A DNA stretch of 64,000 bases, taken from NCBI RefSeq assembly GCF_029873635.1, contig NC_080423.1:99010397-99074396 (forward strand). The letters run 5' to 3'. The position numbers were made by a program, and so were the translations under genes. Shown here piece by piece: positions 8,079-51,859 of the stretch. This DNA is from Malania oleifera. Taxonomy: Eukaryota; Streptophyta; Magnoliopsida; Santalales; Ximeniaceae. Below the pieces are notes generated by a model. It ran no database searches, was not told where the DNA came from, and worked only from the letters and a program-made list of their open reading frames with translations. Position 1 is the first letter of the stretch. Each line of letters begins with the position of its first letter.

Positions 8079-8124
8079 TGTAGACACCCTATTTTTGTCC
8101 TAGTCAAACAGAATAAGGGGTTCC

Positions 8125-8288
8125 CTCTTATTATTTTCATTATTATTATTATTACTTTACTATTATTATTTTTGATATATTATTATAGTTATTATTGTTA
8201 TTATTATTATCTTTAACTGTAAATATAATTATTATTATTATTACTATTTTACTATTATCATTTTAATTATTATTCTTATTATTACCAC

Positions 8289-8331
<43 letters not shown>

Positions 8332-8489
8332 GTCATTATTATTTTTAGTATTTATTGTTATTATTATTATTTTATTATTGTTACTTTATTATTACTATTT
8401 TCATTATTTTAATCATTCTTATTATTACCTTACTATAATTATTTTTGCTATTTCCATCTTTATTAGTATTATCATTATTTTCAAACCTG

Positions 8490-8525
<36 letters not shown>

Positions 8526-8575
8526 ATATTATTATTATAATTATTATTATCATATTAGTATTATTATTATTTCCA
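8125..8575. repeat. Imperfect (ATT)n microsatellite
   Basis: About 450 bp are dominated by TTA/ATT triplets with scattered interruptions. A second, shorter ATT tract lies at about 10305-10410 in the same insertion. The open frames called here are repeat-driven (runs of Y or I). Confidence 0.95.
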
Positions 8576-8676
8576 TATATTTTATTACCATAAAGGTATA
8601 GAAAAGAATACAAAAAATGAAAAAAAGAAAAGAAAAGGAGGAGCAGAGGCTAGGGTTTTCCAATATTTTATAAAGA

Positions 8677-8694
8677 GGGGGGGGGGGGGGGGGG
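8677..8694 (+). repeat. Run of 18 G
   Basis: An uninterrupted G homopolymer follows TATAAAGAG. A similar 17-G run lies at 12604-12620 at the start of gene 1. Such runs are often mis-sized in assemblies. Confidence 0.95.
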
Positions 8695-9276
8695 CGGCGC
8701 TCGCATTTGAAGGGGCGCTGCACACACAGCACAGATAGAGGGGGGCAACTTCTTCTTCTTCTTCTTTTTCTTCCTCTTCTTCTTCTACCATCTCGCTCTC
8801 GTCTCTCCAAAATCAGTCCCTGACCCGAACGACCATCCAATCCGCCGCTGCTTCAAACCAACCACACCACGGCAGCCCCTCGTCTCCAACCATCACCTGC
8901 AACCAGCAGCCGCCGACAAACACCACGAGCCCCTACCTGCTGCCGTCACTGCTGGAGACCCGTGAACCACCCGTGACCAACCTTCAATACATCCACGGCA
9001 CCAGAAATCCGAGGACATCTCCACCCTCTGTTCCGGCCACCTTCTTTGCTGCAACTCTGGCAAACTCCCTCAGAACCCAACGAGCACAGCAGACTATCAC
9101 AGCCCAGCCCTGACCTCCAGCTTCTCTGTAGACCACCTTCTCTCTCAAAGACCAGAAGATGAGTCCAGCCATCGTCTTCGGCGTCCCTCCGTCACGCCCA
9201 CAGCCACAATCCCTGACAGTAAGCTCTCTTTGCACACCAACACACTCACACCATACACACACACACTGAACATGCA

Positions 9277-9321
<45 letters not shown>

Positions 9322-10378
9322 GTATGTATATTTCTTTTGGTTTTATTTATTTATTAATTTATATTTATTTATTTATTTTTTGCAGGATTTTTTTTTTCTT
9401 CTTTCATAATAATGTATATTCAAGTTTACATCTAACCTCAATTTTTTATTTATTGCAGGATTTTTTTTTTCTTGTTTTCTTTTATATGTTGACCGTATTG
9501 TTATTATCATTCTAATATTTAAGGTGTTTATATTTAATGTCTTGGTCAAACATTTGATTTTTAAGGTTTGCACATTTATTAAACATCATGATATTACTTA
9601 CCATTGTAAATTTAGTTTTATTATTTATATTTTTGTCTTTATGTGAGTTTAAGTATTTTTTTTTTTCATTGTATATATAGGTTTTGGATTTATTGTCATT
9701 GTATTGGTTATATATTTAGGGTTTTTGATTTATTGCATTCACATCGTTAGGTTTGTCTAATTGTTATTACATTAATCATCTTTATTATTTATATTTAATT
9801 GGGGTCTTGGATCAATTATTGTTGAGTGTTGTTTATATATTTATATTATTATTGTTATTAATCGCATTGTATATTATTGCACATTAATGTTTAATTCATT
9901 GTCATACTTATTCTTGCATGTCCATATATTGATTTTCGAATCGGGTAGTTTTCAGGTTATATAGCTTACATGTTAATTACAGGATTAATTTATCTCTTTA
10001 ATTATTTCCATATTGTACATGTTTTCATTAATTATATGTTTAAATTAAAGCAGGTTTAGTATTATTAATATATGCTTATTATTACTAATAGTATTATTGC
10101 CATAATTATTATATATACATACATACACATATTTTTAGAGGTGGGCTAATATTGTATATCTTGGAACGTGGTATTATTATTACTATCCTTTTTGTGCAAG
10201 TATATATGTATATTAGCGTGTGTATAGTCACATATTATTATTTCCATATATTAGGGTACATGCCATTCATTATTATCATACGTATATATACATGTGTCGA
10301 GTTATTAATATTATTATTATTATTATTATTGTTGTTGTAGATCATTACTATTACTATCATTATTATTATTTTATGATA

Positions 10379-10416
<38 letters not shown>

Positions 10417-10509
10417 TTTTTTTCTTAAGTATTTTTGATTTTTTCATCCCTATGATTTTAATGCGGAGGTATGAGCCTTCGGGCTTCACGTACCTTTAGC
10501 TCTGAGGGA

Positions 10510-10543
<34 letters not shown>

Positions 10544-10650
10544 TACATTTATTTATTTATTTATTTTTCATGTGTATTTATAAATTTATAAAAGGAGTAA
10601 TTTAAAGACTTTTTAAATTAATTTAGGGATAATTCTAAATTAATTAGGTA
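8695..10650. other. Interior of the gene 1 insertion, no gene seen
   Basis: A GC-rich CT-biased stretch (8690-9240) is followed by TA and TATG runs (about 9279-9330). T-rich DNA with many ATT triplets then continues to 10650, including two copies of a TTGCAGGATTTTTTTTTTCTT-like string near 9382 and 9456. The short open frames here are low-complexity and none resembles a protein family. Confidence 0.5.
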
Positions 10651-10883
10651 CCGTTCGTAAGAACAGGCGCGTAAGGGGTGCTCGTACGTTTCCCTCGCGT
10701 AACCGCACTCCCGACCCCGGCTCTGGTAACGTAGGCACATTCTACCCCTAACGGGGTAGTAATCATGTGTTCTAACCACACTAAAAAGTTAGTAGCGACT
10801 CTGACATTCTCTATTTTTCCTTGAAATTTAAATTGATTTTTATTTCGCCGCCTGAGGCACATGCACTCCGGGACGTTGTGACA

Positions 10884-12627
10884 CTCACCATAGAATTTAT
10901 TGTTGCTGAAATCCATATAATTTAAATTTGGGTATATGCCAAAATGTTCTGATATGTTTCTAGTGAATTGATTCCTTCCTAGCCTAACCCTAACTAGGGT
11001 AGTACAGTTCCTTAATATTTTTGCAATGGAACCTATGAAATGGTTATCTTCTATAAGAAACTTCTCAAGCAAACCCCCAAGGCATGTATTGTCTGGAAAA
11101 TGGTTGATAAATTTGTTATCAGATAAAGCCAGAAGCCTCAAATGTGTAAGATTATTCATCTCTTGAGGAATGGAGCCATAAAATTTGTTTGAAAACAAGC
11201 ATAAGTCTCGAAGAGACTTCAATTTCCCTATTTCTGGAGGGAGTAGGCCTGAAAATAGATTTCCATGGAGTGCTAGGGTGGTGAGCTTAGTAAAATTTCC
11301 AATTGTGAGTGGAATGGTTCCTGTTAGGTTGTTACTTGACAATGCAAGGTAATTGAGAGACGTAAGTATTCCTATCTCTCGAGGAATAGATCCAGAAAGC
11401 ATGTTATGATGAAGGTACAAGGTGGTCAAGTTGCCCAAGTCTTCTATAGTAGTTGGGATTGGCCCTATGAGGTTGTTACCTGACAATGAAAGGCTATTGA
11501 GAGACTTAAGCATTCCTATCTCTCGAGGAATATATCTAGAAAGCATGTTATGACGAAGGTACAGGGTGGTCAAGTTGGCCAAGTCTCCTATAGTAGTTGG
11601 GATTGGCCCTGTGAGGTTGTTAATTGACAAGTCAAGGTCATTGAGAGACTTAAGCATTCCTATCTCTCGAGGAATAGATCCAGTAAGTTCGTTTACCCCA
11701 AGGTACAAAGTGGTCAAGTTTTTTAAATTTCTTATCGAACCTGGAATTGAACCCGTGAGATTGTTATATGACAATGCAAGAAAAATAAGAGACTTAAGCA
11801 TTCCTATCTCTCGAGGAATAGATCCAGAAAGCATGTTATTATCAAGGTACAAGGTGATCAAGTTGCCCAAGTCTCCTATAGTAGTTGGGATCAGCCCTGT
11901 GAGGTTGTTACCTGACAAAACAAGGCCATTGAGAGACTTAAGCATTCCCATCTCTCGAGGAATAGATCCAAAAAGCATGTTGTCATAAAGGTACAAGGTG
12001 GTCAAGTTGCCCAAGTCTCCTATAGTAGTTGGGATTGACCCTGTGAGGTTGTGACCTGATAATTGAAGGTCATTGAGAGACTTAAGCATTCCTATCTCTC
12101 GAGGAATAGATCCAGAAAGCATGTTGTGATGAAGGCACAGGGTGGTCAAGTTGCTCAAGTCTCCTATAGTAGTTGGGATTGATCCTGTGAGGTTGTTAAC
12201 TGACAAATCAAGGGCATTGAGAGACTTGAGCATTCCTAGATTGGAGGGAATGTTTACGAAGAGGATGTTGTTGCTAAGATCAAGCTTTTCGAGGTGTTGG
12301 AAGGACGAGAAATTAAAACTATGGAGCGTACCTCTCAAAGCAAGGCTTGTGAGGTTTACATATGCAATGCCCCTAATGGACTTGTGACGCCCAATTCCAA
12401 TCCATCGATTGCAAGGGTCGGTTCCAACCCAAGAGGACAAAATAGATTGGCTGTGGTTGTCAAGGCTTGTCTTCCATTCCACCAAAGCGTTTGTTACAGA
12501 AGTAGTGGTGACTAAAGCAGAAACAAAAGCAGTGCAATAACAAGGAGGAGGAGGAGGGGATGCAAGAAAGAGGAGGAACAAGAGAAGGAAGGAAAGAAGC
12601 CGCGGGGGGGGGGGGGGGGGTAGACAT
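10884..12627 (-). pseudogene. Gene 1 exon 1, 5' piece: signal peptide, LRRNT and LRR array
   Basis: From about 12581 to 10898 one open frame encodes [12 protein letters not shown], the LRRNT region ([26 protein letters not shown]) and about 18 LRRs of 24 residues, ending at NKFYGE where the insertion starts. The conserved start codon by comparison with genes 2 and 3 is the ATG at 12627-12625. It is followed by ACC and a 17-C run, which puts it out of frame with the LRRs. A shorter product from an internal start would lack a full signal peptide. Confidence 0.87.
11340..12240 (-). repeat. 144-bp coding repeats (paired LRRs) in gene 1
   Basis: Two 24-residue LRR types alternate: a D type ([20 protein letters not shown]) and an M type ([20 protein letters not shown]), each followed by REIG or TTIG. 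At DNA level the string AAGCATTCCTATCTCTCGAG (plus strand) recurs every 144 bp. Three full pairs precede the divergent LRR with SLIFLALSYNNLT, and more follow it. Confidence 0.85.
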
Positions 12628-13355
12628 TGGTTTTCCTATATATCTATGACTGCTGGGTATATAAAATGGATGGGTGGTTAGGATTGGGATGCAGAGGGTA
12701 AAGGCATAATGAGTGGTATTTATAGACAATGGAGATGGAAGGGATGGTTTAAATGAAAGAAGTAGATGGGCCCTCTTGGCTATAGGATGGCTCCAAAAGT
12801 GAGACGAAAGTGAGCTCTTCTTAGCTTGAAATTGATTTGAAGAGCTCAAATATTGCAAGTAATGAAACACAACAAATAAATAAGTAAAACATTTCATTAT
12901 TATTTTATATAAATCGATAAATATGCTTCTAATTTTGTCTTTGGCAACAGCATCACTTTATAAATATGTTTATTATTTCTTTTTTGCGCAGTGAACTTAG
13001 GTAATACTGAGAGTTCCAAAATTGCACGTAATATATAAAGTATGAATGAGTCATTTATAAATTTGGTTTAGGTATAAAATTGTCCTTTAAGAATAGTCAA
13101 CAAATAAATAATATTTTTTATGATGAGATATTGTTCGCTTTGATCCACAAAAGATAACTTACAAAGTTAAAGTCTAAATATTTTTATATCATCAATTTAT
13201 CATGACAGGTAGTTATAATGACAGTTAGGCTAACTAAATTAATTAATTCATTAATTGGCTTGTGTACCTAGTAGTATTAACAACATTAATAGATGGTGGC
13301 GATTATTCTTATGGATATGAACCTTTTTTTTTTTTTTTTTTTAACTTTTACGTCA
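12628..13355 (-). other. Promoter region of gene 1
   Basis: The first about 120 bp match the gene 3 promoter, including the TATA box. Further out, about 13010-13310 matches 53360-54040, upstream of gene 2 (for example GTGTACCTAGTAGTATT in both). This places the edge of the duplicated unit at least 0.7 kb upstream of the start. No separate gene is seen. Confidence 0.7.
12717..12724 (-). promoter_or_regulatory. TATA box of gene 1 (TATAAATA)
   Basis: TATAAATA on the minus strand lies 90 bp upstream of the ATG at 12627. The same octamer sits at the same distance in gene 3 (62532-62539), within a conserved context. Confidence 0.6.
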
Positions 13356-22741: not shown

Positions 22742-24315
22742 ATACATTTATACTTTACTCTGAATCTGATATCTCTGTAATACTCATCTCATCATGATCT
22801 CAGTTCTCATTTTTCTCAGTATTTCACATCACATAAACTCATTTCACATTTCTCATCTCCTGTCTTCACATACTCAGTATTCTCAAATAATTTACATACA
22901 CTATTAAATAATAATCACTGGTTAAATCAACAATTATGCATTTAGAACTCACTGTCAGATGGATAATCATTATCATGCTTCCCCCCATGACGGGTTATGT
23001 GACCTGTAGGCTAGACTTAACCATGGTTGGCACACCAGAGTTAAATTAGTAATAACCTCTTCAATCTGTAAGTCAGATTGGCTGTTCCCATACTGGTCTA
23101 GACTCCAGGGGGACTCTACATTTCTCAACCCAATCGACCATCACATCTCCACACCCTCTCTAAGACGTGTGGGTACACTAGCTCTTCAGAAGTCACGCGC
23201 AATAATATTGTGACTACTATGGTCCACCGGAGTTCTCAAATCATACATTGCAATTTAACATTCACATTATGCTTTGATTAAACAATTCATATGCAATATA
23301 ACACAATACATTTCATTATTTCCAACATGTAACACATATATCACAACTCAACTTAGTATATTCGTTTTACTCATGCGAAACATTTTAAATAATATGCATA
23401 ATTATATGTCATCTAAAATAATAAGCCAACCCATGTTCATCATCTGTTTTACTGAAAGTATACGTCATTACTTTAATCATTCCATTTTCGCAAATAATAA
23501 ATAGTAACACAGCCCTAGGCTCAAAAATTTCAGTTTAAACGGCTGGCTTTCAATACTCATAGAATAATTGTATAAATACACAAATGATTTCCATTTTAAC
23601 CGATGAAATTTACAAAACTATTGGCTTAATCTATTTCCCTTACTTGGTTTCCTAAGCTACGCCAGCAGGGACCCCGAATCGATACCTGCAGTGCTCACCT
23701 GAACCCTAATTCAATAACCCTAATTTATCAACTCAAACCCCAAATCAACAATTATTAAGCATCCCCATGCCCATACACCCATTTCAGATAATCATGTACT
23801 AGACAAACGACTCATTTCTACCCTTACCTAAACTTTGGGGTGATGCCTGGAAAGACCTTGTTAAAAAATCCACTCCACTAGACCTGTAGAGAATTTCTCC
23901 TAGATCCTCATGGTAACTTTCGATTGTCGAATCAGGAGACGAATGGTGAGATATCATAAAGAGAGGGTGAAAAGTGTTGTTTTAAAGAGAGAAAGAGAGG
24001 AATTTAAGATTTCTTAATAAGGAAGAAAAGAGAAATTTTATTTATAGGTCGTTGACTCGGCCAACCTCGTCGATGAAATGCAGTCTTCGTCAATGAGTTG
24101 CAGAAGGTCGTTCGTTGACGAACGCTAATCCTGAAATTTTTGTCATTCGGAACTTTTCATCGACGACGCCTGAACTTGATCGACGAACCACAGAAGGGCC
24201 TTTGTTGATGAAGACAGGGGATTCGTTGACGAAGCCTATTGTTTCCTTTTTAAAATTTTCCCTTTCTCTATTCCTTTATTATTTTCCATAAATAAATTGT
24301 ACGGGTCTCTACATT
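22066..24315 (-). mobile_element. Tekay-like Ty3/gypsy LTR relic
   Basis: It ends on the plus strand with ACGGGTCTCTACA, the reverse complement of a TGTAGAGACCCGT LTR start, so its sense is minus. The order of landmarks matches the LTRs of the gypsy element at 39165-48310. These are the TCCTAAAAAA...GAGACACATCTCA segment, CCCCCCATGACGGGTT (about 22980), a TGGTCTAGACTCC block (about 23095) and a TTCGTCGACGAA-type motif array at 24060-24235. The left end is eroded. No internal region is attached. Confidence 0.65.
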
Positions 24316-24731
24316 TTTAGCCTAGTATTTGCTATAGAGAAAAAATAATGAAAATAAATTTTTGTTTTAATTACCTTTTCTTTCCTTTTTTTAAAAAAAA
24401 TATTTGATTCAAATGAACTCTTATAACTAAAAGATTACTTACGATTGAAGTTAGTATACTAACAAATACATACAACATTGTCTAGAATTTGAAAGATAAA
24501 AAAACAAGGAGGAAAAAGATACGAGGGGATTCAAATTCTTTGATTCAATCACCAATATATATATTTGTGAAAACAAATTAAATTTATATTTTATTACCAT
24601 TTAAGTTTAAGTAAACAATCAATTTTAAGTTTTTATTTTTTATTTTTTATAATTGTGTTTGAGATAGGGGAAAAGTAGAATGCGAATTTTGATTTTACTT
24701 TCTTTTAAGAGCGTGACTACATTTGCATACT
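24316..24731. other. AT-rich DNA, nothing recognised
   Basis: No open frame, repeat or LTR landmark could be assigned. Confidence 0.4.
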
Positions 24732-25560
24732 TGTCGCCACATCTCAGAGAAGGGTATGGAGTGATGAGGAATAATAATATTAGAAGTTCAATAAAGCTAC
24801 CACTAACCTGTTATTTTCCTATGTGCGGTTAGTTTGCCGAATTATTGTTTGTTGATTCGTTTCTAAATTAATCCTAAGTTAAGAAACTTGTAGTCTCGAT
24901 TTGCATTTATCAGAGTTAGGATCGGGAGTTCAATTATGTGAAAAGAATTTACTAGTGCTCCCTACACACCTGTTTTACAAACGATACTTAATTAACTATG
25001 AATTATTCCTAAACTAAATATAATAGTCTTTAATTAATTCATTAATAAAAAAAACATTGAAAATTTTAAAACAAAATATGAAATAAGATGTGATTTAGGA
25101 GTGTCTAATAAGACCCCCAAAAAAGGGATTTTATTAGATAACCCCCCCCCTCCCTTTTCAAAACTAATATAAGTGAGGTCTGAAACACCTCTTTACCCTT
25201 TATTTAATCATTGGGACCCACATAGCAAAATAAAATGTATATAGATAATTATCAAATAAATTCATCAAATGAGAGTAAAAAGAGTTTTTAAAACATCCAC
25301 AGATTTTCAAAATTTTAAAGTTTTTTTTTGAAAATTTTCAACATTTTTATACAATTCCTCTTAAATTTTTAAATACTTTTTCTCCATTTAATTTCCTTTT
25401 TGGTTATTTAATTTTCTATTTGTTTTATTAATCCTTAGTCAAAAAAACTAAAATAATTTTTAATATTTTTTTTAAGAAAATATTTCATATTTTATTGATT
25501 TTCTTTCTATTTTTATCAATGTTTAAAAATTACAACATTTTTAAAATTAAAAATTATTTT
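24732..25560 (+). mobile_element. LTR fragment of the TGTCGC family
   Basis: It starts TGTCGCCACATCTC and contains the family string TACACACCTGTTTTACAAAC (compare CCCGTTCTTACGAACGG at 13630), then a purine- and T-rich stretch. It resembles 34960-35560 on the same strand and the inverted end of the tandem block at 28985-29503. It appears to be a plus-sense fragment abutting a minus-sense copy. Confidence 0.5.
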
Positions 25561-28500
25561 TAAATAATAGAATAGAGGGGAGGGAACAAACAAAGAGAAT
25601 TACCAAGAAACAGGGAGGAGAGAGATGCGAACGAAAGAGGGAATATGTGTGTGGTGTGTGTGGAGAGGGAGAGCAGAGGGAGGAGGACCGAGGAGAGAAG
25701 AAGGAAAAGGGGGAGGGCCAAATCAGAGAAAGAGCGTAAAGAATAGGAGAATTTGTGAGCAGAAAGAAAAAAAAAAAAAAAACAAAAAAAAAAGTAAAAA
25801 GGGTGGGCCCGCAAAAAAAAGGGGAGGCAGAGGAGAAAAAGGGAGGGAATGGAGAAAAAAGAAATAAATAAATTGAAGGGAATTCTCTTTCAATGAAAGA
25901 GGGGGACATGTTTTGATTTACGCGTCAAAATTGTGGAATTAGGCGTTTGAACTCATACATTAACGATTTTATTAATTTTAATTAAATGTCTGATTATGTT
26001 TAAATATTTTTTAACAGTGGGTTCAATTTAATAATATTTGGTTTTTTATCAAAAAATTTACGATATCTGTGTTTTTTAACTTTGGTTTTTTAATAATCGT
26101 TTAGAATAATGGTTTTTTCGGAAGAACAAACGTTAACATGCACACACAATTTAAATGAATGAAGTCGCAAAATCTAAGTCCGGAAAATTGCCAAATCTAG
26201 AAGATATATTTCGGTATTTTAATCATCAAACTCTCTCATTCGAGTGTTCGATTGAGATGATTTTCAAAGTGCTTTGTGCAAAGCAAGAAAACGTTTTTAC
26301 AAATGTGTTTTAAGTTTTGAGAGTTACGGGGGCTGTTAGGTAAGATCTCAATGGGGCTTTGAAAGTATTAGAACCGACCCTAGGCTTCAAAATTCAAGCT
26401 GGTCATGAGGGGTCTTGAGTGCACGGAGGAAGGATTCAAAACGGGGTCTTTAAAAAAATGCATGGGCATGGACCAAGTGTGGTCATGGGCTTGCATGGGC
26501 CCATGCGCTGGGGCAGGCTGAATTTCAAGTGCGGAAAAAAATGGTAAGAGGGGCAAAGTAAAAGTAAAGGGAGAAACGGGAAAAAAGAAAAAAAAAAAAA
26601 AAAAAAAGGGAGGAGTGGATGGGGTAGAGAGGAAAAAACAAAAAAAAAAGAGAAAAAAGAAAAAAAAAAGGCTTCTTTGAGGGAGGGCTAGGGGTTTAGA
26701 AAAAGTTGCTGGGGTTTTCTTTGGCTGGGGGTCTCATGGCCGCACAGTGTTTCTGCTTTGGGAGAAGAAGCTCACTTACAGCCACGCTCCATATCTTCCC
26801 GCTCTCTCTTTTTAGTTTCTTGTGTGTTAATTATTTTTTTGATTGTCCAATTTACTGCATTTTGTATCATCCATATTTTAGGCATTTTAGTTTGAAAAAT
26901 TTATTTGTATTGAATATTAACATTGAAGCACTTTATTTTAGAGTTAATGTTGAGTTTATTTTATTGGTTTGTTTTTAATTTATTTTTATTTTGCTCTCTT
27001 CTTTCTTTCTCACTCTCTCTCCGAGTTTTTTTTAAATTACTTGGCTTAGATTATTTAAGTTGGTTAAATTCAGTTTATTTTTTATTTTTTATTTTTTGGA
27101 GTTGTTTGAATGTTAAATGTTTTTTGGAATGATTTAATTATTAAATAAGTTATAATTTATACTATTTATTTCAAAGGTCATTGTAGGTGTTAATACTTGT
27201 GGACATTTTTATTCTTGTGTTTGCTGTTATTATATTGAAGGTTAAATGGTTGATTTGATTACGGACCCTCTCATTCCCTCCTTTCCTTGGTTTGTTTAAT
27301 ATTTTTAATTCTAACTAATGTTAAGGTTAAATAATTCTTGATGGGAGTTCTTTTTAATTTGTCTAAATTTAGTCATTTATTTTTTAGGAAATGTTTTGAG
27401 TCTTTTGAGTCTTTCTATTGTAGGGGTTTAGGTTTATTTATTTATTTAGCCCATTTTTATTTATCGTTTAGTTTAGTTTATTTTCATTTAGTTGAGTCTT
27501 TGTTTTACGATTTGAATGTTTAATTAGTGAATGTGTTTGGTTGGTTCTATGCATATTAGTCCTAATTTAGGTTCACATCATTTCAATTTCACACAAATTT
27601 CCACGCAAAAAAACCCCCAAGATTTTGAAATTCAACCATGTAGTTAAAATTTCTTTTCTCATTTTCTTTTTCCGTTGTTTTTGCAGCTTAGTTTAAAAAT
27701 ATCTACACTTTCCTAAGGACGACGATTTTCTGACTTTTAGACATATTTGGAAGGTAAGTATTATACGGACGGACTCCTATACTGGGTGATAGTTATAGTG
27801 CTACTCATTTTTAAAAGTGAAGTCATTGTTTTCTTTTATAATGTTCTTGTCTTTCTTTTGGGGCCACAAACAAAAAAAAAAAAAATAATATATATTTTTA
27901 AATTATTAATAATACATTTATTTGGGGGATATATTATACATATGATTAATTAGTCATTATATATAAAAATGTCTCAAGGATGAAAATGATGAGCTAGGGT
28001 GTGGTACAGTTGTAAATGAAAAGTGTTTAATTGTTTAATGAGGATGTTTGTCTCAATTCTTAAGCATAATGCCTCAGAGAGTTAATGTTAGATTAATATT
28101 TATTGATTCCATATTAAAAAGTGTCTTGTCAGATTGAAAATGGATGGAGAAGATGAGGGTATTACAATTGTAATAAAAAGTATTAAATTTATTTAATGGA
28201 GTGTTTGCGTCTCAATTCCTAACATGATGCCCGAATAGTATTATTCAAATGGTTAAAATTTGCCTTTAATGAATGATTGGAGAATGGGTTATATATATAT
28301 AATATAATGGGGTGATTGTCACCCCAAACAGAGCAAAAAAAAAAAAAAAAAAAAAAAAAAGGAAAAAAAAAAAAAAAAAAGGGGAAAAACAAAAAAAAAA
28401 ATCAGGATGTGACACGGGTCAAAGTACGTCATGCTAAAAGGTTCGTCGTAGTAATTTTTTTTTTTTAAAAGAAAAGAATGGAATGGAGACAAGTTGTCAA

Positions 28501-29870
28501 CAACGTGGGTGGACACTGTGGCCCACCAAGCTAAACCGTGATGACTGGCTTCGTTCAAGTCGGTTGTTTTTTTTTTGTTTTTTTTTTGTTTTTAATTCGA
28601 TTCTTACTTTGTCTGACATCTGGTGGTTTTTATTATTTATATTTTATTTTTTATTTTAAAATTGATTTTTTTAATTTTTAAATAAGGGAAAATCAAGGGA
28701 AAATATGGAAAAGATTTGAAGTTTTTTGGACTCAAGATTGAAAAAAAAATAGAAAAATAAAAAAATACCAAAAAAAAATAAGGAAATGTATTTTAAAAAA
28801 AAAAAAAAACCATATACCCATTAACATTTTAGGGAAAAAATGTTAGAATTTTCTTTTATTAATTTTTTCGAAAAAAAATATGGGAAATGGGAAATGCTTT
28901 TTTTTTTTAAAAATCTTGTGCTTCTTAAATTTGTGATAATTTTTTTTTTTTTTTTTTACATGTGTGTCCTTAGATTTTAGAAAAAAAGGGGCAATAAATA
29001 TGTCAAACCTCACCCGTAATTCGCTCTGAAATGAGGATTTTATCTAACAAAATCCTCTCGTTTTAGAGGTATTATTATACATTCCCTAAAAACGCCATTT
29101 TTATAATTTTTTATCTTTCTTTTTAATCTATTTATTTATTTGGCTATGTTTAAAAGAGCTAATCAGAAGAACAGATATTAATTTTAGGATAATTCATGAT
29201 TAAGTGGGTACACATTCGTAGAATGTGTGTAGGAGATGACAATACCTTCGCCTCACATAAATTTTTTTTAAAATTAAACTCTCGATTTCCCAATTCTGCT
29301 AAAAGCAAAACAAGGCTACAGGTTCCTTGACCTAAGTTTAGTATTTAGAGAACAAAAATAATTAATTAACAAGTTGTAATTAGGTCGATCTAAACCACAC
29401 TTAGGTAAAATTATAAGTTAAGTGACGACTCCATCAAAATTTCAAACATTATTATACCCCGCCACTCCTTGAGACCCTTCTTCAGGACGTTGCGACAGGA
29501 TCAACTAAAAATTGATTGGATGTCAAAATGTGATTGACCTAATTGGAGGGATAAAAGAAAAAAGGGGCCTGCCACGGTGTCATGTAAGCGGTGGTGGCAC
29601 AATGACAATGTGATGATATTTTATATTTTATATTTTATGTATGTTTTTTTAATTCTTTTTTTTTGTTTTTTAATTTACGCAGCAGGTGAATCAAATAGAA
29701 CACATCTTTAATATTGAAATACAAACAAACTCCTCATCATCTCTAATATCTCTCATATAACCTACACCTAACCATCTCCACCTCCACACTTAGAATCCTT
29801 CCCCATAGTAAGATTATCAAGATAGCTTGGATATAATTTAAGATCCTATGGGATCATGGATTTTATTTTG
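25214..29870. repeat. Tandem block, copy 1 (about 4.65 kb)
   Basis: It runs from GGGACCCACATAGC to a point near AAGATCCTATGGGATCATGG. It matches copy 2 (29959-34070) end to end in the same order and orientation. It consists of LTR-derived, non-coding DNA: a GA-rich stretch (25560-25870), TTTTTAG/CT-rich stretches, poly-T and poly-A tracts, and an LTR end GGACGTTGCGACA at about 29503. Copy 1 is about 13% longer than copy 2 because of many 1-3 base insertions, mostly lengthening homopolymers. The open frames here differ between the copies and are not genes. Confidence 0.85.
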
Positions 29871-29958
29871 AGGAAAAGAAAAAATAATTTAAAAAGAAAC
29901 CAAAACGAAGGAGGAGGTCGGAACAACGCGGGACGGACCCGGGAGGGAAGGCAGGGGG
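29871..29958. other. Junction segment between the tandem copies
   Basis: After the shared GGATCATGGATTTTATTT, copy 1 runs into about 60 bp of GC- and G-rich sequence (about 29895-29957). This is unlike either copy or the flank. GACCCACAAGC of copy 2 begins right after it. Confidence 0.6.
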
Positions 29959-30371
29959 GACCCACAAGCAAAAATAAAATGTATATAGATAATTATCAAA
30001 TAAATTCATCAAATGAGAGTAAAAAGAGTTTTTAAAACATCCACAGATTTTCAAAATTTTAAAGTTTTTTTTTGAAAATTTTCAACATTTTTCTACAATT
30101 CTCTTAAATTTTTAAATACTTTTTCTCCATTTTATTTATTTTTGGTATTTTAATTTTTCTATTTTTTTATTATCTTAGTCAAAAAAACTAAAATAATTTT
30201 TAATTATTTTTTTTAAAAAAATTTTCTACTATTTTTATGATCTTTTACTATTTTTATCAATTTTTAAAAATTACAAAATTTTAATTAAAAATTAATTTTT
30301 AAATAATAGAATAGAGGAGAAAAAGAGAATTTACAAGAAACAGAGGAGAGAGAGCAGAGAAGAGGAGAATA

Positions 30372-30412
<41 letters not shown>

Positions 30413-33400
30413 AGGAAAGGGGAGCCCAAATCAGAGAAAGAGCGTAAAGAATAGGAGAATTTGTGAGAGAAAGAAAAAAAAAAAACAAAAAAAAGTAAAG
30501 GGTGCCCGCAAAAGGGGAAGAGGAGAAAGGAGGAATGGAGCAAAGAAATAAATAAAATGAAGGGAATCCTCTTCAATGAAAGAGACATGTTTTGATTACG
30601 CGTCAAATTGTGTAATTAGGCGTTTGAATTCATACATTAACGATTATAAATTTTAATTAAATGTCTGATTATGTTTAATATTTTAACAGTGGGTTCAATT
30701 TATAATATTTGGTTTTTATTCAAAAATTTACGATATCTGTGTTTTAATATCGTAGAATAATTTTCGGAACGTTAACATGCACACACATTAAATGAATGAG
30801 TCGCAATCTAAGTCCGAAATTGACAACTTAGATATATTTCGGTATTTTAATCATAACTCTCTCATTCGAGTTTCGATTGAGATGATTCAAAGTGCTGTGC
30901 AAAGCCAAGAAAACGTTTTACAATTTTTGTGTTTTAAGTTTTGAGAGTTACGGGCTGTAAGAAGATCAAAGTTGGGCTTGAAAGTATAGAACCGACCTAG
31001 GCTTCAAAATTCAAGCTGGTCATGAGAGTGCAAGGAGGAGGCTTCAACGGGGTCTTTAAAAAAAAATGCATGGGCATGACCACGTGGTCATGGGCTGCAT
31101 GGCCCATGCGCTGGGCAGCTGAATTTCAAGTGGGAAAATGTGAGGGCAGTAAAGGGAGAACTGAAAAAGAAAAAGAGATGGTAGGAGAGGAAAACAAAAA
31201 AAAAGAGAAAAAGGCTTTCTTTTGAGGAGGCTAGGGTTTAGAAAAAAGTTGCTGGGGTTTTTCTTTGCTGGGGGTCTCATGCCGCACAGTGTTTCTGCTG
31301 GGAGAGAAGCTCACCTTACAGCCACGCTCCATTATTCTTCCCTCTCTCTCTTTTTAGTCTTTTGTTAATTAATTTTTTTGATTGTCATTTACTGCATTGT
31401 CAATCCATATTTTAGCATTTAGTTTGAAAATTTGTATTGAATATTACATTGAGCACTTTTATTTAGAGTTAATGTTGAGTTTATTTTATTGGTGTGTTTA
31501 ATTTATTTTTATTTTTGCTCTCTTCTTCTTTCTCACTCTCTCTCCGGTTTAAATACTTGCTTAGATTATTTAAGTGGTTAAATTCAGTTTATTTTTATTT
31601 TTATTTTTTTGTAGTTGTTGAATTTAAATTTTTTTGGATTATTTATATTAATAAGTATAATTTATCTATTTTATTTCAAGGTCATTGTAGGAGTTAATAC
31701 TTGTTGGACATTTTTATTCTTGTGTTTGCTGTTATTATATTGAAGTTAAATGTTTGATTAGGACCCTCTCATTCCCTCCTTTCCTTGTGGTTGTTTAATT
31801 ATTTTACTCTAACTAATGTCATGTTAAATATCTTGATGGAGTTTTTTTTATTTGTCTAAATTTAGTCATTTTATTTAGGAAAGGTTTAAGTCTTTCTATC
31901 GTTGGGTTTAGTTTATTTATTTAGTCCAGTTTTATTTATCATTTAGCTTAGTTTATTTTCATTTAGTTCAATCTTTGTTTTACGATTTGAATAATTAATT
32001 AGTGTGTTTTTGGTTGGTTCTATGCATATTAGGTTCATAATTTAGGTTTCACATCATTTCAATTTCACCACAAATTTCCAAAACCCCCAAGATTTTGAAT
32101 CTGAACCATGTTCAGTAAAATTTTTTTCTCATTTTCTTTTTCCCGTTTTGCGCTAGTTTAAAACTAATCTACACTTCCTAAGGAGACGATCTGACATATT
32201 TGAGTTAATTATTATACGACGGAACTCCTATACTTGGGATAGTTATAGTGCTACTCATTTTTAAAAGTGAGTCATGTTTCTTTAATAATGGTTCTTGTCT
32301 TTCTTTTGGCCACAAACAAAAAAATAATATATATTTTTAATTATTAATAATACATTATTTGTGGGGATATATTATACATATGATTTAATAGTCATTCATC
32401 TATATAAAATTGTCTCAAAGGATGAAATGATGAGCTAGGGTGTGTTACAGTTGTAATAAAGTGTTTAATGAGTGTTTGTCTCAATTCTTAGCATAATGCC
32501 TAGGATTAATGTATGATTAAATATTTATTGATCCATATAAAAGTGTCTTGTCAGATGAAATGATGAGATGAGGTATTACAATTGTAATAAAGTATTTAAT
32601 GAGTGTTTGTGTCTCAATTCCTAACATGATGCCCGAGATTAGTATTCTTCAAATGGTAAATTTGCCCCTTTAATAATGATTTGAGAATGGGTTATATATA
32701 TATATATATGGGGTGATGTCACCCCTACCAGAGCAAAAAAAAAAAAGGAAAAATGAAAAAAAAAAATCAGATGTTGACACGTGTCAAGTAACGTCATGCT
32801 AAAGTCTGTCGTAGTAATTTTTTTTTTTTAAAGAAAGAATGAAATGGAGCCACGTGTCACCACTGTGGGTGGACACGTGGCCCACCAAGCTCAACCGTGA
32901 TGAGCTCGTTTCAAGTCGGTTAAATCGATCTAATTGTCTGAACTGGTTTTTATTTATTTATTTTTATTTTTATTTTAAATTGATTTTTTAATTTTTAAAT
33001 ATAGGGAAAATCAAGGAAAAATATGGAAAATATTTGAGTTATTTTGACTCAAGATAAAAAAAAATAGAAACATAAAAATACAAAAAATAAGGAAATGTAT
33101 TTTAAAAAAAAAAAAACCCATAAAATTTTAGAAAAATGTTAGAAATTTTCTTTTTATAAATTTTTTCGAAAAATCTGGGAATGCTTTTAAAAACTCTTTT
33201 GCTTAAATTTGATAATTTTTTTTTTTTACATGTGTGTCCCTATGATTTTAGAAAAGGGCAAATAAATATTTCAAACCTCACCCGTATTAGCTCTAATGAG
33301 GATTTATCTAACAAAATCCTCTCGTTTAGAGGTCTTATTATACATTCCTAAATCGCATTATAATTTTTATCTTTCTTTTAATTCTATTTATTTATTTGCT

Positions 33401-34070
33401 TATTTTAAAGGAGCTAATCAAAGACCATTATATTCAATTTAGGGATAATTCATGATTAATTGGGTACCATTCGTAGAATGTGTGTGTAGGAGATGACAAT
33501 ACCTTCGCCTCACATAATTAAACTCTCGATCCCAATTCTGCTAAAAGCAAACCAAGGCTACAGGTTCCTTGACCTAAGTTTAGTATAGAGAACCAATTAA
33601 CAAGTTGTAATTAGGTGATCTAACCACACTTAGGTAAATTATAAGTTAGTGACGACTCCATCAAATTTTCAACATTATTATACCCCGCCAATCCTGAGAC
33701 CCTTCTTCAGGACGTTGCGACAGGATCAACTAAAATTGATTTGGGTCAAAATGGATTGACCTAATTGAGGAAAAGGGCTGCCACGTGTCAGTCAGCGATG
33801 GTGACACATGACACTGATATTTTATATTTTATATTTTATGTTTTTTAATTCTTTTTTTTTTTTAATTTACTGCAGCAGGTGACATCAATAGAACACTCTT
33901 AATATGAAATTACAACAAACTCCTCATCTTATCTCTAATATCTCTCATATAACCTACACCTACATCTCCACCTCCACATAGAATCCTTCCCCATAGTAAT
34001 ATTATCAAGATAGCTTGGATATTAATTAAGATCCTATTTGGATCATGGATTTTATTTGAGAAAAGAAAAA
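29959..34070. repeat. Tandem block, copy 2 (about 4.1 kb)
   Basis: This is the shorter copy of the block at 25214-29870. It ends with an LTR terminus GGACGTTGCGACA at about 33722 (reading TGTCGCAACGTCC on the minus strand) and about 340 bp of flank. It keeps intact-looking palindromes such as GACCACGTGGTC (about 31079), which are broken by extra bases in copy 1. That suggests this copy is the truer sequence. Confidence 0.85.
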
Positions 34071-34714
34071 TAAAAAGAAAAATAAGAAAAAAAATCTTCA
34101 TTTTTATTATATTTTTCCTCTGTTTTAAGTAGTAGTAAAATAGAATTTTTCTATAATATGATTAAAAATTAAGAAAGTTAGTGTTAATGATATACAAACT
34201 AAAATTTTCAACATTAATTTGATATATATTTTATTTTCTTTCTTTCTTTCCTTAATAGTTAAACATCAAATAACATATTTTTTTCATGTTTTTCTTTCCT
34301 TTAAATAATATATTCTAAATTCCAAGCAAGATAGAAATGTAAAAATTTAAATCTAATTCTAACGAAATATTGTTCACGGACCTCACAATTTTGCCTCACC
34401 TCATGAAAAATATTCGTATATATGCAGTCAATTAATAATTATTTAATACAATAATAACTTAGTTTTATGGAAATATTAAGATGTAGTAAAAAGGAACGTA
34501 GACTTGACTTGGAGTAGCATTTATCACATTTCATTCATTTATTAGCTTATGTAGGTAATTTTGGCGATTATTTTTTCATTAAAAAATTGTTAAGTTCAAA
34601 CTACACATCTAATCTTTGATTAAAGTGTTATTTATTGACCTAAGGAGTCATTTGTGTGGGTCAGTCAAATAATTAATTGAACTCGCCATGTCCACTAGCT
34701 CGTAGACTGGATCC
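34071..34714. other. AT-rich spacer
   Basis: No gene or mobile element was recognised. The sequence resembles the AT-rich intergenic DNA of the receptor cluster. Confidence 0.4.
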
Positions 34715-34850
34715 GTGAGGTTTTACAACGTTTCTTATGGACTTGAACTTGCCGTGGCCTGGCCACTTACGCGTAGTCTTTTGGCTGTCGTTGTCAAGAC
34801 TCGCCTTCCATGGCACTATAGCAGTAGTGACGTATTATAAAAACAAAGAA
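34715..34850 (-). pseudogene. Scrap of LRR-RLK N-terminal exon
   Basis: On the plus strand, CCGTGAGGTTTTACAACG, TCTTATGGACTTG and GTTGTCAAGACTCGCCTTCC match the LRRNT-coding part of gene 3 (about 62160-62330 on the opposite sense) in order. Internal DNA is missing and no open frame remains. It is a heavily decayed copy of the N-terminal exon. Confidence 0.7.
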
Positions 34851-35799
34851 ATTAGCATCACTACAATGTTCAGCTCAACGATCAAGTTATATTATATTAT
34901 AAATTATATTGAGTCTTGTTCGTGACATGACCAACTTAAATTGATTTTTAAAACAAAAAAAATGTGCCATATGTTTTTTATGCGGGAATGTATTCGCACC
35001 TCTTATGTTTGACAAATGATATATAATTAATTATAGATTATCTTAAAATTAAATTTAATAATCTTAAATTAACTCTTTTTTTAAAAAATAAATAATTAAT
35101 TAATTAAAAGGAGATTAAAATTTTTTGTGCGATTTAAGAATGTTTAATAAGACCTCCAAACAAAATGATCTTATTAGATAAACTTCCCTCAAAACTAATA
35201 TAATTGAGGTGTAAAATATCTCATTATCCTTTTTTAAATCATAGGGACGCACGCAGGTAAGAACTAGGGAAAATGTCAAATTATAAGTAAAAGAATTTTT
35301 AAAATCATCCCCAGATTTTTCAAAAATTTCTTGTAGAAATTTTATAAAACTTTTTTACATTTAAAAAAATTTCTAAGATTTTTAAAGACATTTCCTTATT
35401 TTTTTTCAAACTTGAAATAGCCCAAAAATATTTTTTTTCCCTATTTTTTTGACATTCAAAACATTTTTTTTATTTTCCCCAATTTTTCCTTATTTTTTTT
35501 TTCATTTTTTAGTAGAAGCTAATTAAAAAATAAGTAAATAATTAAATAATGGCTTAGGAAACAGACCGATTTGACCAGTTTAGGAAGTGGGGGCCACGTA
35601 TCAAACCAGAGTGGTGACATGTGACAAAAAAAATTTATTCTCTTTGTTATTTTTTTTTTAATAATTGTGGCAGGGTGATGTAAGCATGATGTCACCCTAC
35701 CAGGTGGCGGTCTTTGAGTGGCTCAGGAAAATGATAAGGATCTCTTCTCTCATTTTCTCTGTATTCATTCTCTCTTCTCTCTATCTCTTCTTTTGTTCT

Positions 35800-36110
35800 T
35801 TATTATTGTTTTCTCTCTTCTCTTTTCTTATTCTATGGTTCCCTCTGGTTCTCTTTATTCTATGATTCTTTGATCCAGTGTTCTCTGTTGTTCTCTCAAG
35901 TTCTACGGTTTTTTTTATCTCTATTGTTCCTTCTTGTTCTATGGTTCTTTGATCTCTATAGTTCTCATGGGTTCTATGGTTCTCTGATCTATGTTGTTAT
36001 CTTGGGTGTTATGGTTCTCTAATCTTTATGGTTTTCTCGGATTCTATGGTTCTCTTATCTATGTGGTTCTCTTGGGTTCTATTGATCTCTACTATTCTCT
36101 TAGGTTTGAA
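35800..36110 (+). repeat. Degenerate TTCTATGGTTCTCT repeats
   Basis: The motif recurs roughly every 35-45 bp, with TCTCTTGGG strings between. It is low-complexity and non-coding. Confidence 0.7.
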
Positions 36111-41144: not shown

Positions 41145-44100
41145 TGTTCTCCCCTCCTTATAAAATTTCATCCTCGAAATTTACAATTCATATAGTTTAT
41201 CATCCCTTAGGAAAAATGGTCTACTTACTTTATTACTTACCCTCACTTATGGCGGAGGAATATTGTGGTTACAACTCAAGTTCTGGGAGATTAAATATAC
41301 CCAAAGAAAATTTCTCCTAAAACTAAAATACCACACACTAACTAAAGTATTACATGTACCTAAAAAAGAAAACTACATATTTACTTACATTTTCTAATTA
41401 CATTTAAACTTCTTGGAATAATTGCGGATATTTTTGTCTAATCTGCTCCTCGAGCTCCCAAAAAGCCTCTTCTATCGCATGAGTCCTCCATAAAACTTTT
41501 ACTAGAGGAATCTTCTTACTACATAGTTCTTGTTCCTTTCTGTCCAAAATCTGTACTGGTACCTCCTCACAAACTAGAGAATCACTGAGATCTAACTCAC
41601 CATAACTGATAATATGAGAAGGATGTAGGACGTATTTCCTTAACATAGATACGTGGAATATGTCGTGTATTCTAGATAGTGTAGGTGGCAAAGCTAGTCT
41701 ATAAGCCACCGGCCCCACTTTCTCTAAAATCTCAAATGGACAGATGAATCTAGGGCTAAGTTTACCCTTCCTACCAAACCTCATAACTCCTTTTAACGGA
41801 GCTATCTTCAATAATACGTGATCACCCATATCAAACTCCAAATTTCTACGGCGATTGTCGGCATAACTCTTTTGTCGGCTTTGAGCTACACTGATTCTTT
41901 CCCTAATGAGCCAAACCTTATCGTACGCCTGTTGTACCAGCTCTGGACCCACAACTCGCCGCTCACCTATCTTATCCCACTACAAAGGAGATCAAGATCT
42001 CCTACCGTACAAGGCCTCAAACGGTGCCATGCCAATACTGGACTGGTAGCTGTTATTATACGCGAACTCCACCAGTGACATGAATTGAGTCCAGCTACCT
42101 CCAAAATCTAATACACATGCACAGAACATATCCTCTATTGCCTGTATCATCCTCTCATTTTGTCCGTCTGACTGAGGATAGAATGTCATGCTAAATGATA
42201 ACTGAGATCCTAAAGCATCCTGCAAACTTCTCCAGAATCGTGACGTGAAATGCGGGTCTCGATCTAACACAATAGATACAGACACCCCATGAGAACGAAC
42301 TATCTCCTGAATGTAAATCTCCACTAAACGGCTGAGGGAATAGCTAATCTTGATAGGCAGAAAATGGGCGGACTTAGTCAACTGGTCTACTATCACCCAA
42401 ATCGCATTCTGGCCATGCGATGTTGACGGCAGTGCTGAAACGAACTCCATGGATATATGATCCCACTTCCACTCTAGGATAAATAGAGGCTGCAACGGAC
42501 TTTCTAGCCTCTAGTGCTCAGCTTTTACCTGCTGGCACGTCAAGCACTATGCTACATACTCAGCAATCTCCCTCTTCATACCACTCCACTAGTAAAACTC
42601 TCGCAGATCCCTGTACATTTTTGTACTACCAAGATGGACTGTATATAAGGATCTGTGAGCCTCATCTAAAATAGTCCTCCTAATGTTAATATCAGCACGA
42701 ACACACAGCTTGGAACGGAACCGCAAAGCTCTGTCATCTGAAATGCAGAATTCCTCTCCCTGACCGCTCTGCACTTTGTCCATTACTTCCACCAATTTTG
42801 GATCTTCTTTCTGGGCGGCTTTAATTCTCTCTTGTAGAGTAGGCTATATCACTAGGATGACGATACATACTGGAGTATTAATCTCTATCAATTCAATGTT
42901 GAGTCTCTCTAGATCCATCATGATCGTACGCTGGATCTCCATAGCTGCTAACGCTGATACTCTAAACTTCCTGCTGAGTGCATCAGCTACCACATTTGCT
43001 TTCCTTGTGTGGTAACTGATAGTACAGTCAAAATCCTTAATCAACTCTAACCACCTTCTTTGTCTCATATTCAGATCCTTTTAGGTGAAGAAATATTTTA
43101 AACTCTTGTGGTTGGAGAAAATATCGCACTGCTCGCCGTACAGTAATGCCTCCAAATTTTCAATGCGTGTACCACTACAGCCAACTCAAGATCATGGCTA
43201 GGGTAGTTCTTTTCGTATTCTTTCAACTGTCTAGACGCATATGCCACTACCCTGTCATGCTGCATCAGTACACAATCAAGTCCCTTCAAGGACACATCAC
43301 TGTAGATAGTATAACCCTCACCCCAGACGGGATGATTAATACAGGCACTGTGACCAACCTCTGTTTCAGTTCCTGAAAACTCTGCTCACAGTTGTCATCC
43401 CATTCAAATCTGGCATTCTTCCTAATCAATCGTGTCAGAGGTCCTGATAAAGCTGAAAACCCTTCGACAAAACGACAGTAATATCCAGCTAACCCTAAGA
43501 AACTCCTGATCTTCTGGACGTTCCTCGGTCTAGCCTAGTTCACTATCGCCTCAATCTTGCTGGGATCTACAGAAATTTCGTCTCCTGAGATTACATGCCC
43601 TAAAAACACAACTTTCTCGAGTCAGAAGTCACATTTACTAAATTTTGCATACAGCTTCTTCTCCCTAAGCATCTGCAAGACTTGCCTCAAATGTATCTTG
43701 TGCTCTACATAGCTCCTCGAATAGACCAGTACATCATCAATAAAAACAACCACAAATTGATCTAAATATGTATGAAAAATTCTATTCATCAAACCTATAA
43801 ATATCACAAGAGCATTCGTTAGATCAAATGGCATAACAAGGAACTCATAATGCCCATACCTGGTCCTGAACGCTATCTTCAATACATCCTCTGCTCTCAC
43901 CTTTTCCTGATGGTAACCTGATATGAGGTCAATTTAGAATATACTCATGTACCCTGGAGCTGATCAAATAAGTAATCTATACGGGGTAAAGGATACTTGT
44001 TCTTGATAGTCACTTTATTAATCTCTCTGTAATCTATACACATCCTTATAGACCCGTCTTTCTTCTTTACAAATTGCACTGGAGCTCCCCACGGCGATAC

Positions 44101-46189
44101 GCTAGGTCGTATGAAACCTTTATCAAGTAAATCATGTAACTGGTCTTTCAATTCTGCCAATTCTGCCAATTCTGCTGGCGTCATTCGGTACGGTGCTTTA
44201 GAGATCGGCGCTGTACCTGAAAGTAGATCAATAAGAAAATCTACTTCATGATCAGGCGGCAAACCTGGTAATTCATCTGGGAACACATCTGTAAATTCTT
44301 TTACCACAGGTGTATTAATAAGTTTCAATTCATTTTCTGACATTTCCCTTACAAAAGCCACGAATCCCAGATAGCCATTCTAGAGCAGTCTCCTTGCCTG
44401 AACGGCTGAGACCACCTGAGCTAAGGATTGCACTTGTGACCCTGTAAATCTAAATTCTGGTTTCCCTAGAGGTCTAAAAATCACTTCTCTTGCACGACAG
44501 TCTATGATAGCAGAATTAGCTGCTAGCCAATCTATGCCGAAGATAATATCAAACTCGTGCATATCGAGCACCACCAAATCAGCAGATAAAATTCTCTCCT
44601 GAACATTAACTGGACAACCACAGAGCATCCTACTACATCTCACCGCTGACCCGGTCGGTGTAGCCACTAACAGTTCAGGATCTAATGATTGTGTTTCTGC
44701 CCCACATAATTTAGCACACCCCAAGGAAGCAAACGAGTGCGTGGCACCAGAATCAAAAAGTGCAATGACTTTAAATGAAAACATATTAACAGTACCTGTC
44801 ACCACATCGCCGACCGCCTCAGCATCACTCAGCATCAAAGCGAAAACCCTGGCTAGGGCCATATTTCTCTGCTGGCCTACTCGTAGCGCCTAGTAACCTC
44901 CTCGTGCAGGTCTAAGAGCAGGAACAACACCAATCTGCGTCACACACTCCCTCATCATATGTCCTGACTCTCTGCACCGGTAGCAGACACCTTGCCTGGC
45001 ACGACACTCTCTTGGGTGCCTCTTCCCGCAAGATGGGCAAGCTAGAGATGGTTGCACACCCTAGAAACCGCGATTCCCGGTCTCTTGTCTCTAGTCTCTA
45101 TAATAGCCACCTCTCTTCCATGAACCACGTCCAAACCCCTGCTGAGAACCAGAAGGTATGGATCTCTTCTTCTATCTCTGTTCCTCAGCCTCCAACCGAT
45201 CACCAATTTCTGCTATAGTGGCTCGGTCAACCAACTCGGCAAAGTCCTGCAACTTTAGTACCGATACTTGCTTGTATATTTCTCTCTTTAGGTCTCTCTC
45301 AAATTGTCGTACCTTCTCCACCTCATCTGGAATAATGTATGGGGCAAATCAAGATAGCTTGATGAACCTCGCCACGTACTGCTGTACTGACAGTTGTCTG
45401 TGCTTCAGATTCAGGAACTCTTCAATCTTAGCCTCCCTGGAAGAGGTTGGAAAATTACTGTAGAAGAATATTTCTTTAAACTGCTCCCACGTCATCTCCA
45501 CGGGTATAGTTCTCTGCTGCTCTAAAAGTCTCACTGCTGACCACCATCTCTCGGCCTCTCTAGTCAATCTATAGGTGGCAAACAACACCTTCTGCTCCTC
45601 TAAATACTGCAGCACTGCAAATATTTTCTCTATTTCCTGCACTTAGTTTTCAGTAACTACAAGATCTATCCCTCCTGAGAAAGCCGAAGGACTCATCTTA
45701 ATAAACTTATCGATTGAACTACCGTGGCCTGTCGATGGACCACTTGGTTTCTTCGAACTCCTGGAAATTTCTACCATAACCTGTTGTGCCACGCTGCGTA
45801 AAATGACATCTAAATCACTACCCGCAATGCCTAAGGGTCTAGCACCCTCACTCCCACTGGTGTGGGCACTATTGGCACCAAGGTCCGTCCTGAAAAACAT
45901 GTAACTTAACTCAAAACCTCCTTCTCTATATATATCACTCAACTCATATGGTATATTCTCTAATTTAATTCATTTTTCCTAATCTTAATTCAAGGTTCAA
46001 TTATGCAACCTAGATACCCAACCCGACAATAGTTTACAATGACTTTCCTGAAATTGTCACCCCAGGAAAATCACACAAACCACCACGGAAGTCCTGTATC
46101 TAGACTACAAAACCAGACCTCAAATTCCTTTATCCTATACTCTAATATTATATTGCTGCACTCTGGAGTCTATAGAACCTAGAATCCTA

Positions 46190-49838: not shown

Positions 49839-50515
49839 CATGCTTCCTAAAAATAAATTTTCTGATAAATAATGATAATAATTAGCATGGAAAATAACTG
49901 CTTTAGTTTATTCCCTTACTTGACACTGAAAAGAAACCCCCCCTAAAATACGCTTGTCCTGCACTCGCAGGGTTCCCCATTCAACACCCTGAACCCAATA
50001 ATTCCCAGAACTAAACTTCAGTATTTCTCTGTGATTAACATTTCTTATAACTAGGGAAAGACCAAATTTTGCATAAAAAGTCTTACCTTAACCCAGGGAT
50101 GAATTTCAACTAACTCCCACCAACGATCCGCTCCGGCAGACTTGGAGAGAACTTCCCCAGGAGCGTTGTGGTGGCCTCAAATCGTTGATTCGACGAACGA
50201 TAGGGTTGAAATCGAAGAGAGAAGAGAGAGAAACCATAGGGACGAGAGAGAAAATATTTTCTGCCAATTTTTCTACATAAAATCCGAGATTTGAGCTATT
50301 TATACTATGGGCTTCGTCGATGAGCCACGTCACCTCATCGACGAGGTCAAGAGGCAATTCGTCGACAAATTCCCCCCTTTGTCGATGAAATTCAGAGTCG
50401 CCTAAAACTTCCTCTCGGTATCTTCTCGTCGACGAAGGCCTGTTGTACCCCCTTTTTAATTTCTTTTTTTCCCTCTTTATTATTATTAAATATCATAATT
50501 CTTCGGGTCATTACA
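48541..50515 (-). mobile_element. Third, diverged gypsy LTR abutting LRR gene 2
   Basis: It is collinear with the two LTRs of the inner element (CCTGTCATACACAACGGAAC, CCATGACGAGTTGTGCAACC, CGGCCTTGCGCC units at 49425-49530, CGATCCGCTCCGGCAGACTT) but clearly older or of a sister family. It ends on the plus strand with CTTCGGGTCATTACA at 50515, so the minus strand starts TGTAATGACCCG. Gene 2 sequence begins at the next base. A TTCGTCGACGAA-type array lies at 50318-50445. Its left edge is approximate. Confidence 0.7.
49795..49834. repeat. (AT)n microsatellite
   Basis: A TA run of about 38 bp within the diverged gypsy LTR. Confidence 0.9.
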
Positions 50516-51335: not shown

Positions 51336-51859
51336 TGGTTTTCCTATGTATATAAGACTTCTGGGTATATAAAATGGATGGGTCATTTTATATACAACAT
51401 CTCATTTGTGTGTTAAGTGTTGAACAGGTTAAATTTTAGAAAGCACACAGATGATGATGCAATATTATTTTTTATTTCTATTTTTTCTAATAAATACCAA
51501 CAAAAATGCCACTCTATTTTCCGATTATCCACTATTTATTGTTCTAGGGGATCATTCAATTTAACTAACATTGATTAGATCAATTAATCAACACTTAATA
51601 TGATCAATCATTTAATTCAAATTGACTCACATGTCTAATTGCATAATTTCCTTTTGTGTTTGAAGTTGAAGATGTTGGTCTACCATTTTTATTTCATTTT
51701 TTCCTTTTTTTTTATATATATATTTTAAATTTTCAATGTAAAAACTTTATTTTTTCTGTATTTTTTTTTAAATTTTTTTCATTTTATTGTATTAACAAAT
51801 TTATTGTGGTGACAAGTTTGTCCAAAGTTTGGAAGTTGAAAAACGTGGAGGATAAATAG

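Follow-up and report, generated by a model that had tools for sequence, protein, structure and literature searches.

A direct tandem block in Malania oleifera, very probably a false duplication built from an uncorrected long read

Main finding

In the 64-kb stretch of Malania oleifera DNA that was analysed here (the window), a segment of roughly 4 kb is present as two direct tandem copies (Table 1). In the original prediction this block was explained by an uncorrected long-read segment placed beside its polished duplicate. The block is indeed very probably an assembly artefact, in which an uncorrected long read falsely duplicates accurate sequence. This explanation is supported by the ratio of indels to substitutions, the bias towards insertions and the extension of homopolymers, and further by the low ratio of transitions to transversions (Ti/Tv), the strand-asymmetric substitutions, the polarity of the changes, the abrupt onset of the errors and a join in which T is read as G. 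The genome itself would then probably contain one copy of the segment.

Table 1. Coordinates of the block, its junction and the inverted arms (positions of the window)
Feature	Positions	Strand	Length	Description or basis
Copy 1	25214-29870		4657 b	Collinear with copy 2, aligning across its full length
Copy 2	29958-34073	+		Read as the accurate version of the segment, from the alignment and the outgroup and internal-repeat scores
Left-hand part of the unit, read as accurate	25159-25348	+		122-b exact run and alignment with T equated to G
Insertion-rich segment of copy 1	25349-29900	+		Best read as one uncorrected long-read sequence
Junction	29901-29957	+		Left flank 25159-25213 with T read as G; copy 2 follows directly
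Left inverted arm (at least this long)	24900-25348	+		Matches the right arm taken in reverse complement
Right inverted arm, in copy 2	33132-33551	-		Arm-to-arm match
Separate related arm, downstream	35025-35404 (34973-35404 also given)	-		Outgroup for polarising the copies

Differences between the two copies

As had been predicted, the two copies are collinear over the whole length of copy 1, which is about 13% longer than copy 2. Their global alignment contains 3917 matches and 98 substitutions, together with 279 insertion events in copy 1 (642 b) and 78 deletion events (101 b). Among the deletions is a 15-b trailing end gap; without it, 77 deletion events, 86 b and a total of 356 indels remain. 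The excess of indels had first been noticed by hand in a short sample, and the two 150-b bins containing that sample (29264-29563) hold 14 insertions, one deletion and four substitutions, which agrees with that hand count. The lengthening of homopolymers was confirmed as well: among the 167 single-base insertions, 123 duplicate an adjacent base, whereas 2000 random placements gave 75.5 on average and never more than 97. The palindrome GACCACGTGGTC is whole in copy 2 and interrupted in copy 1, and copy 2 contains 27 perfect 10-base palindromes compared to 17 for copy 1 (several overlap (AT)n). The pattern of differences between the copies is far beyond chance.

Ten duplicate pairs of the same window served as controls. 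They were hand-picked, are mostly long and lie outside tandem arrays (pairs of short tandem repeats were left out); as some pairs share a region or overlap, they are not fully independent. The long duplicate pairs of the window include LRR receptor kinase paralogues and a family at 39167/46208/48554. Under three scorings, the copy pair has 3.63, 2.37 and 1.77 indel events per substitution, whereas all ten controls stay at or below 0.76, 0.31 and 0.31, respectively. The indel excess is hence independent of scoring within these three schemes. Substitutions outnumber indels in every control pair, in line with the earlier claim that natural divergence is led by substitutions, and the copy pair departs from this mode of divergence, which the controls set as the standard for a natural tandem duplication.

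The substitutions themselves are also unusual. Ti/Tv is 0.27 in the copy pair and 0.98-4.85 in each of the eight controls compared (out of the ten pairs); under another scoring the values are 0.34 versus 0.97-4.38, and for isolated substitutions only 0.31 versus 0.58-3.62. When copy 1 is read as derived from copy 2, T>G and C>A together account for 42 substitutions and their reverse complements A>C and G>T for 13 (p=1.1e-4), an asymmetry that was spotted in the alignment before being tested and that is weaker for isolated substitutions (20 versus 9, p=0.061; under the other scoring 21 versus 8, p=0.024). None of eight control pairs is significantly asymmetric (p at least 0.12), and natural change would hardly be expected to prefer one strand in this segment. 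Because of the low Ti/Tv and the strand asymmetry, the substitutions in copy 1 look like base-calling errors.

A natural origin is disfavoured because the other duplicate pairs of the window diverge differently. Slippage in A/T-rich DNA can favour indels, and a real tandem duplication could in principle have a first copy that diverged naturally, chiefly through small insertions. Such an origin is nevertheless extremely improbable: all ten control pairs diverged chiefly by substitution, the Ti/Tv of 0.27 lies below the 0.5 of random substitutions, the substitutions are strand-asymmetric, indels occur all through the segment yet are absent from 122 b near its start, and a T-to-G stretch occupies the join.

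One cluster of substitutions (27380-27560) deviates from this picture, with six transitions among 13 substitutions. The densest 180-b window of the alignment contains 14 substitutions, which was equalled in nine of 1000 random placements. The cluster may be a real allelic difference from a second haplotype, and it counts against a reading of pure error. A heterotype false duplication, where the noisy read derives from the other allele, would account for this cluster and is compatible with the main explanation, but it is given only a small probability: the 85 substitutions outside the cluster include only 15 transitions, and allelic differences do not produce the excess of indels.

Polarity of the changes

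Two outgroup comparisons and two internal-repeat comparisons were used to ask which copy had changed, and all four favour copy 2 as the probable original state. The downstream related arm (35025-35404) scores 349 with copy 2 and 244 with copy 1, and the left arm of the element itself scores 88 and 69, respectively. Within copy 2 lies an internal tandem repeat of about 133 b with 81% identity (32379-32500 and 32512-32633). Its units score 153 with each other within copy 2; taking one or both of them from copy 1 lowers the score to 118, 118 and 99. The internal inverted repeat scores 102 in copy 2 versus 80 in copy 1. In addition, copy 2 has a regular (GT)n(GA)n tract, which is interrupted in copy 1.

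Site-by-site polarisation was carried out with MAFFT; as misaligned stretches raise its substitution counts, the pairwise scores were relied on instead. With 35025-35404, copy 2 and copy 1 agree at 13 versus two indels and 39 versus nine substitutions (nine neither), and with the left arm at four versus three indels and eight versus four substitutions (14 neither). The counts are four versus zero indels and nine versus one substitutions (three neither) for tandem unit 1, and five versus one indels and 13 versus one substitutions for tandem unit 2. Copy 2 is thus backed in three of the four comparisons, and weakly in the case of the left arm.

Onset of the errors

The two copies share a 122-b exact match at 25227-25348, directly after which the errors begin. 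From 25349 to the end of the segment they recur at a rate of about 0.114 events per base, at which only 0.0015 clean runs of 122 b would be expected. Since a clean run of that length is so improbable, the accurate sequence appears to stop near 25348. Of the extent originally given for copy 1, the first part is therefore undisturbed, the identical stretch reaching to 25348, and the disturbed part covers about 25349-29900. At its other end, copy 1 follows the right flank of copy 2 past 29870 and up to about 29900, an approximate limit as the sequence is A-rich. Two small indels precede the exact run, both in the first 15 b of copy 2; either the edge of copy 2 is inaccurate too, or copy 1 is wrong there.

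Between 25349 and 29870, copy 1 differs from copy 2 by 278 insertions, 76 deletions and 98 substitutions, counted as events. Counted as bases, 16.2% are inserted, 2.1% deleted and 2.5% substituted, and the identity is 82.1%.

The T-to-G junction

The two copies are separated by a GC-rich junction. This junction is not foreign but a converted version of the left flank, a point that is new relative to the original prediction. In plain letters, its best match in the window scores only 31. When T and G are merged, it matches 25159-25213 with a score of 78, followed by 59 for the next place in the window; 30 shuffled junctions reached at most 60, a null that was run for the T/G merge only among the six letter-pair merges tried. 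Of the other merges, A/G gave scores of up to 76 at purine-rich places away from the flank, A/C up to 67, C/G up to 64, A/T 47 and C/T 45.

At the 19 T sites of the flank, the junction has G in 18 and has kept T in one. Its other letters agree with the flank, except for small indels and one C>A. The related arm downstream (aligned over 35120-35265) has T at 16 of the same 19 sites, A at three and G at none, and T is therefore the original state. To our knowledge, a near-complete conversion of T to G over 55 b is unlike any mutation. Such a stretch of about 55 b, in which the other bases are kept, looks like a failure of base calling. In PacBio base calling some bases are separated by brightness within one colour, and errors of this kind would then be likely. 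The junction sits where two sequence ends would abut, and copy 1 shows a similar but milder excess of T>G and C>A. The literature search returned no usable published match for T-to-G miscalls or for the T>G and C>A excess.

The join itself is made up of miscalled bases, and the repeat starts further left than first reported: the block had been placed from 25214, but 29901-29957 repeats 25159-25213. The 64-kb window contains no N letters, so no gap marks the join, a point against the artefact explanation.

T-poor and GC-rich stretches of 56 b number 78 in the window, and the 60 listed fall in three places, namely a poly-G in an LRR gene (12550-12571), a purine tract in copy 1 (25660-25681) and the junction. 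A SMRTbell adapter at the junction was also considered; 58 of 2000 shuffled adapters and 30 of 1278 tiles of the window gave a score as good, which lends the adapter no support. An adapter remnant is an optional sign of raw PacBio sequence and not a defining one. The T-to-G flank replaced this reading.

Proposed origin of the block

The following sequence of events would explain these observations. Accurate sequence on the left would end near 25348 and be extended by a single uncorrected long read of about 4.5 kb, to about 29900. This raw read, probably a PacBio continuous long read, may have been added during a gap-filling or contig-extension step. The right-hand contig, accurate but starting with some 57 miscalled bases (29901-29957), would then have been abutted to it. 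The two ends would overlap by about 4.2 kb, and as the raw part would share only about 82% identity with the accurate copy, the overlap would have gone unrecognised and been left as a false direct duplication.

Two real tandem copies, of which copy 1 happens to be represented by unpolished read sequence, are an unlikely alternative, although a single assembly does not reveal the copy number. Against it, the junction is a T-to-G version of the flank and not a clean breakpoint, the outer left arm has no near-identical second copy, and the accurate part stops inside the overlap. The T-to-G join, the missing outer arm and the accurate end inside the overlap are all expected from two abutted contig ends. 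It would be scarcely credible that the block is a real duplication of a TIR-like element whose first copy underwent insertion-led, strand-asymmetric mutation, with about 55 b of T-to-G conversion at the breakpoint; we know of no biological process that gives this combination. The likelihoods attached here to variant explanations overlap with that of the false duplication from an uncorrected read.

Comparison with known long-read and assembly errors

The available text of one comparison of platforms describes PacBio RS-II errors as 'dominated by insertions', and Oxford Nanopore (ONT) errors as mostly substitutions and deletions with fewer insertions (PMC6879543). The disturbed segment shares this dominance (278 insertions as opposed to 76 deletions and 98 substitutions, in events), which suggests a PacBio rather than a Nanopore origin. 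Nanopore is likewise a noisy long-read platform, and an uncorrected Nanopore read would be a variant of the main explanation; with 278 insertions versus 76 deletions, however, it is a very unlikely one, given the error types that the same text reports for ONT. In the accessible part of a paper on a PacBio simulator, raw continuous long reads are listed with 8.8% deletions, 5.0% substitutions and 2.9% insertions (PMC5964698). This order opposes the PacBio origin unless the naming is reversed there, and the naming convention may be the cause. The same part gives an average error of about 15% for continuous long reads (PMC5964698), close to the 0.114 events per base found here (16.2+2.1+2.5% of bases). 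The segment thus resembles a raw PacBio continuous long read in its insertion-dominated errors, homopolymer extension and over 10% error events. It differs in having an excess of T>G and C>A and a T-to-G stretch of 57 b, for neither of which the search gave a match.

Under-collapsed sequence that results from long-read errors has been termed homotype false duplication, a term credited to the Vertebrate Genomes Project in the portion of the paper available, where examples of read length are mentioned (PMC9516828). The block resembles this class: one locus would have been assembled twice, with accumulated long-read errors blocking the collapse (PMC9516828), and judged from the sequence pattern, one copy does carry errors of this kind. 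Further marks given there are a lack of haplotype-specific k-mers, on which the possibly allelic cluster at 27380-27560 bears, and, as one of several possible signs, a gap or discordant read pairs between the copies (PMC9516828). A difference is that a T-to-G stretch stands at the join here instead of an N gap. For gap-closing tools on simulated data, the available text of another study reports identities of about 88% for LR_gapcloser and 88.61-95.17% for PBJelly (PMC8848313). In these fills, too, inserted sequence far below consensus accuracy lies beside accurate contigs. However, the fill would here overrun and duplicate the next contig, and its 82% identity is lower than the mean values reported for both tools (PMC8848313).

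Host element and other features of the window

The segment appears to belong to a TIR-like element with inverted arms around an interior of about 4 kb. The arms are at least 450 b long; the left arm and the reverse complement of the right arm match with a score of 359, compared to at most 113 in 200 shuffles. For the outer left arm before 25159, no near-identical counterpart was found beside copy 2, where the match starts from 25213 (or from 25159 with T equated to G). Twelve stop-to-stop ORFs with 80 or more codons overlap the region 24000-36000, the longest having 125 codons and most being low in complexity; from these short ORFs the block is judged to be non-coding. Searches for RNA families at the gathering threshold and for tRNAs returned no matches.

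A family of LRR receptor kinase genes occupies 4182-12733, 50511-51401 and 56850-62548; it is duplicated in the window with about 87-95% identity and carries a 144-b tandem LRR unit. Two long G runs are present in the window (18 at 8677-8694 and 17 at 12604-12620). The second falls into the 5' part of the coding sequence of a minus-strand LRR gene, where two paralogues have GGGGGTG, and near it the reading frame shifts between the ORFs 10644-12635 and 12460-12957. Both runs may reflect additional errors in the sequence or real slippage. Retroelement remains at 497-3128 and 41404-44889 were recognised by a Pfam scan, which covered seven of the 15 listed ORFs of the window: RVT_2 and an integrase, and an aspartic protease (RVP_2) with SH3_Tf2-1. 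We take the former pair to be Copia-like and the latter pair to be Gypsy-like.

Implications

False duplication of this type is ordinary, and the block is most likely not a real feature. As this case suggests, four signs in the assembled sequence alone can reveal such a duplication, namely the ratio of indels to substitutions against internal controls, Ti/Tv, the strand asymmetry of substitutions and a stretch of single-base miscalls at the join. About 4.7 kb (25349-30092) would accordingly be unfit for inferring duplication, element copy numbers or indel rates in this genome. When this part is taken as false, one element with both of its arms remains.
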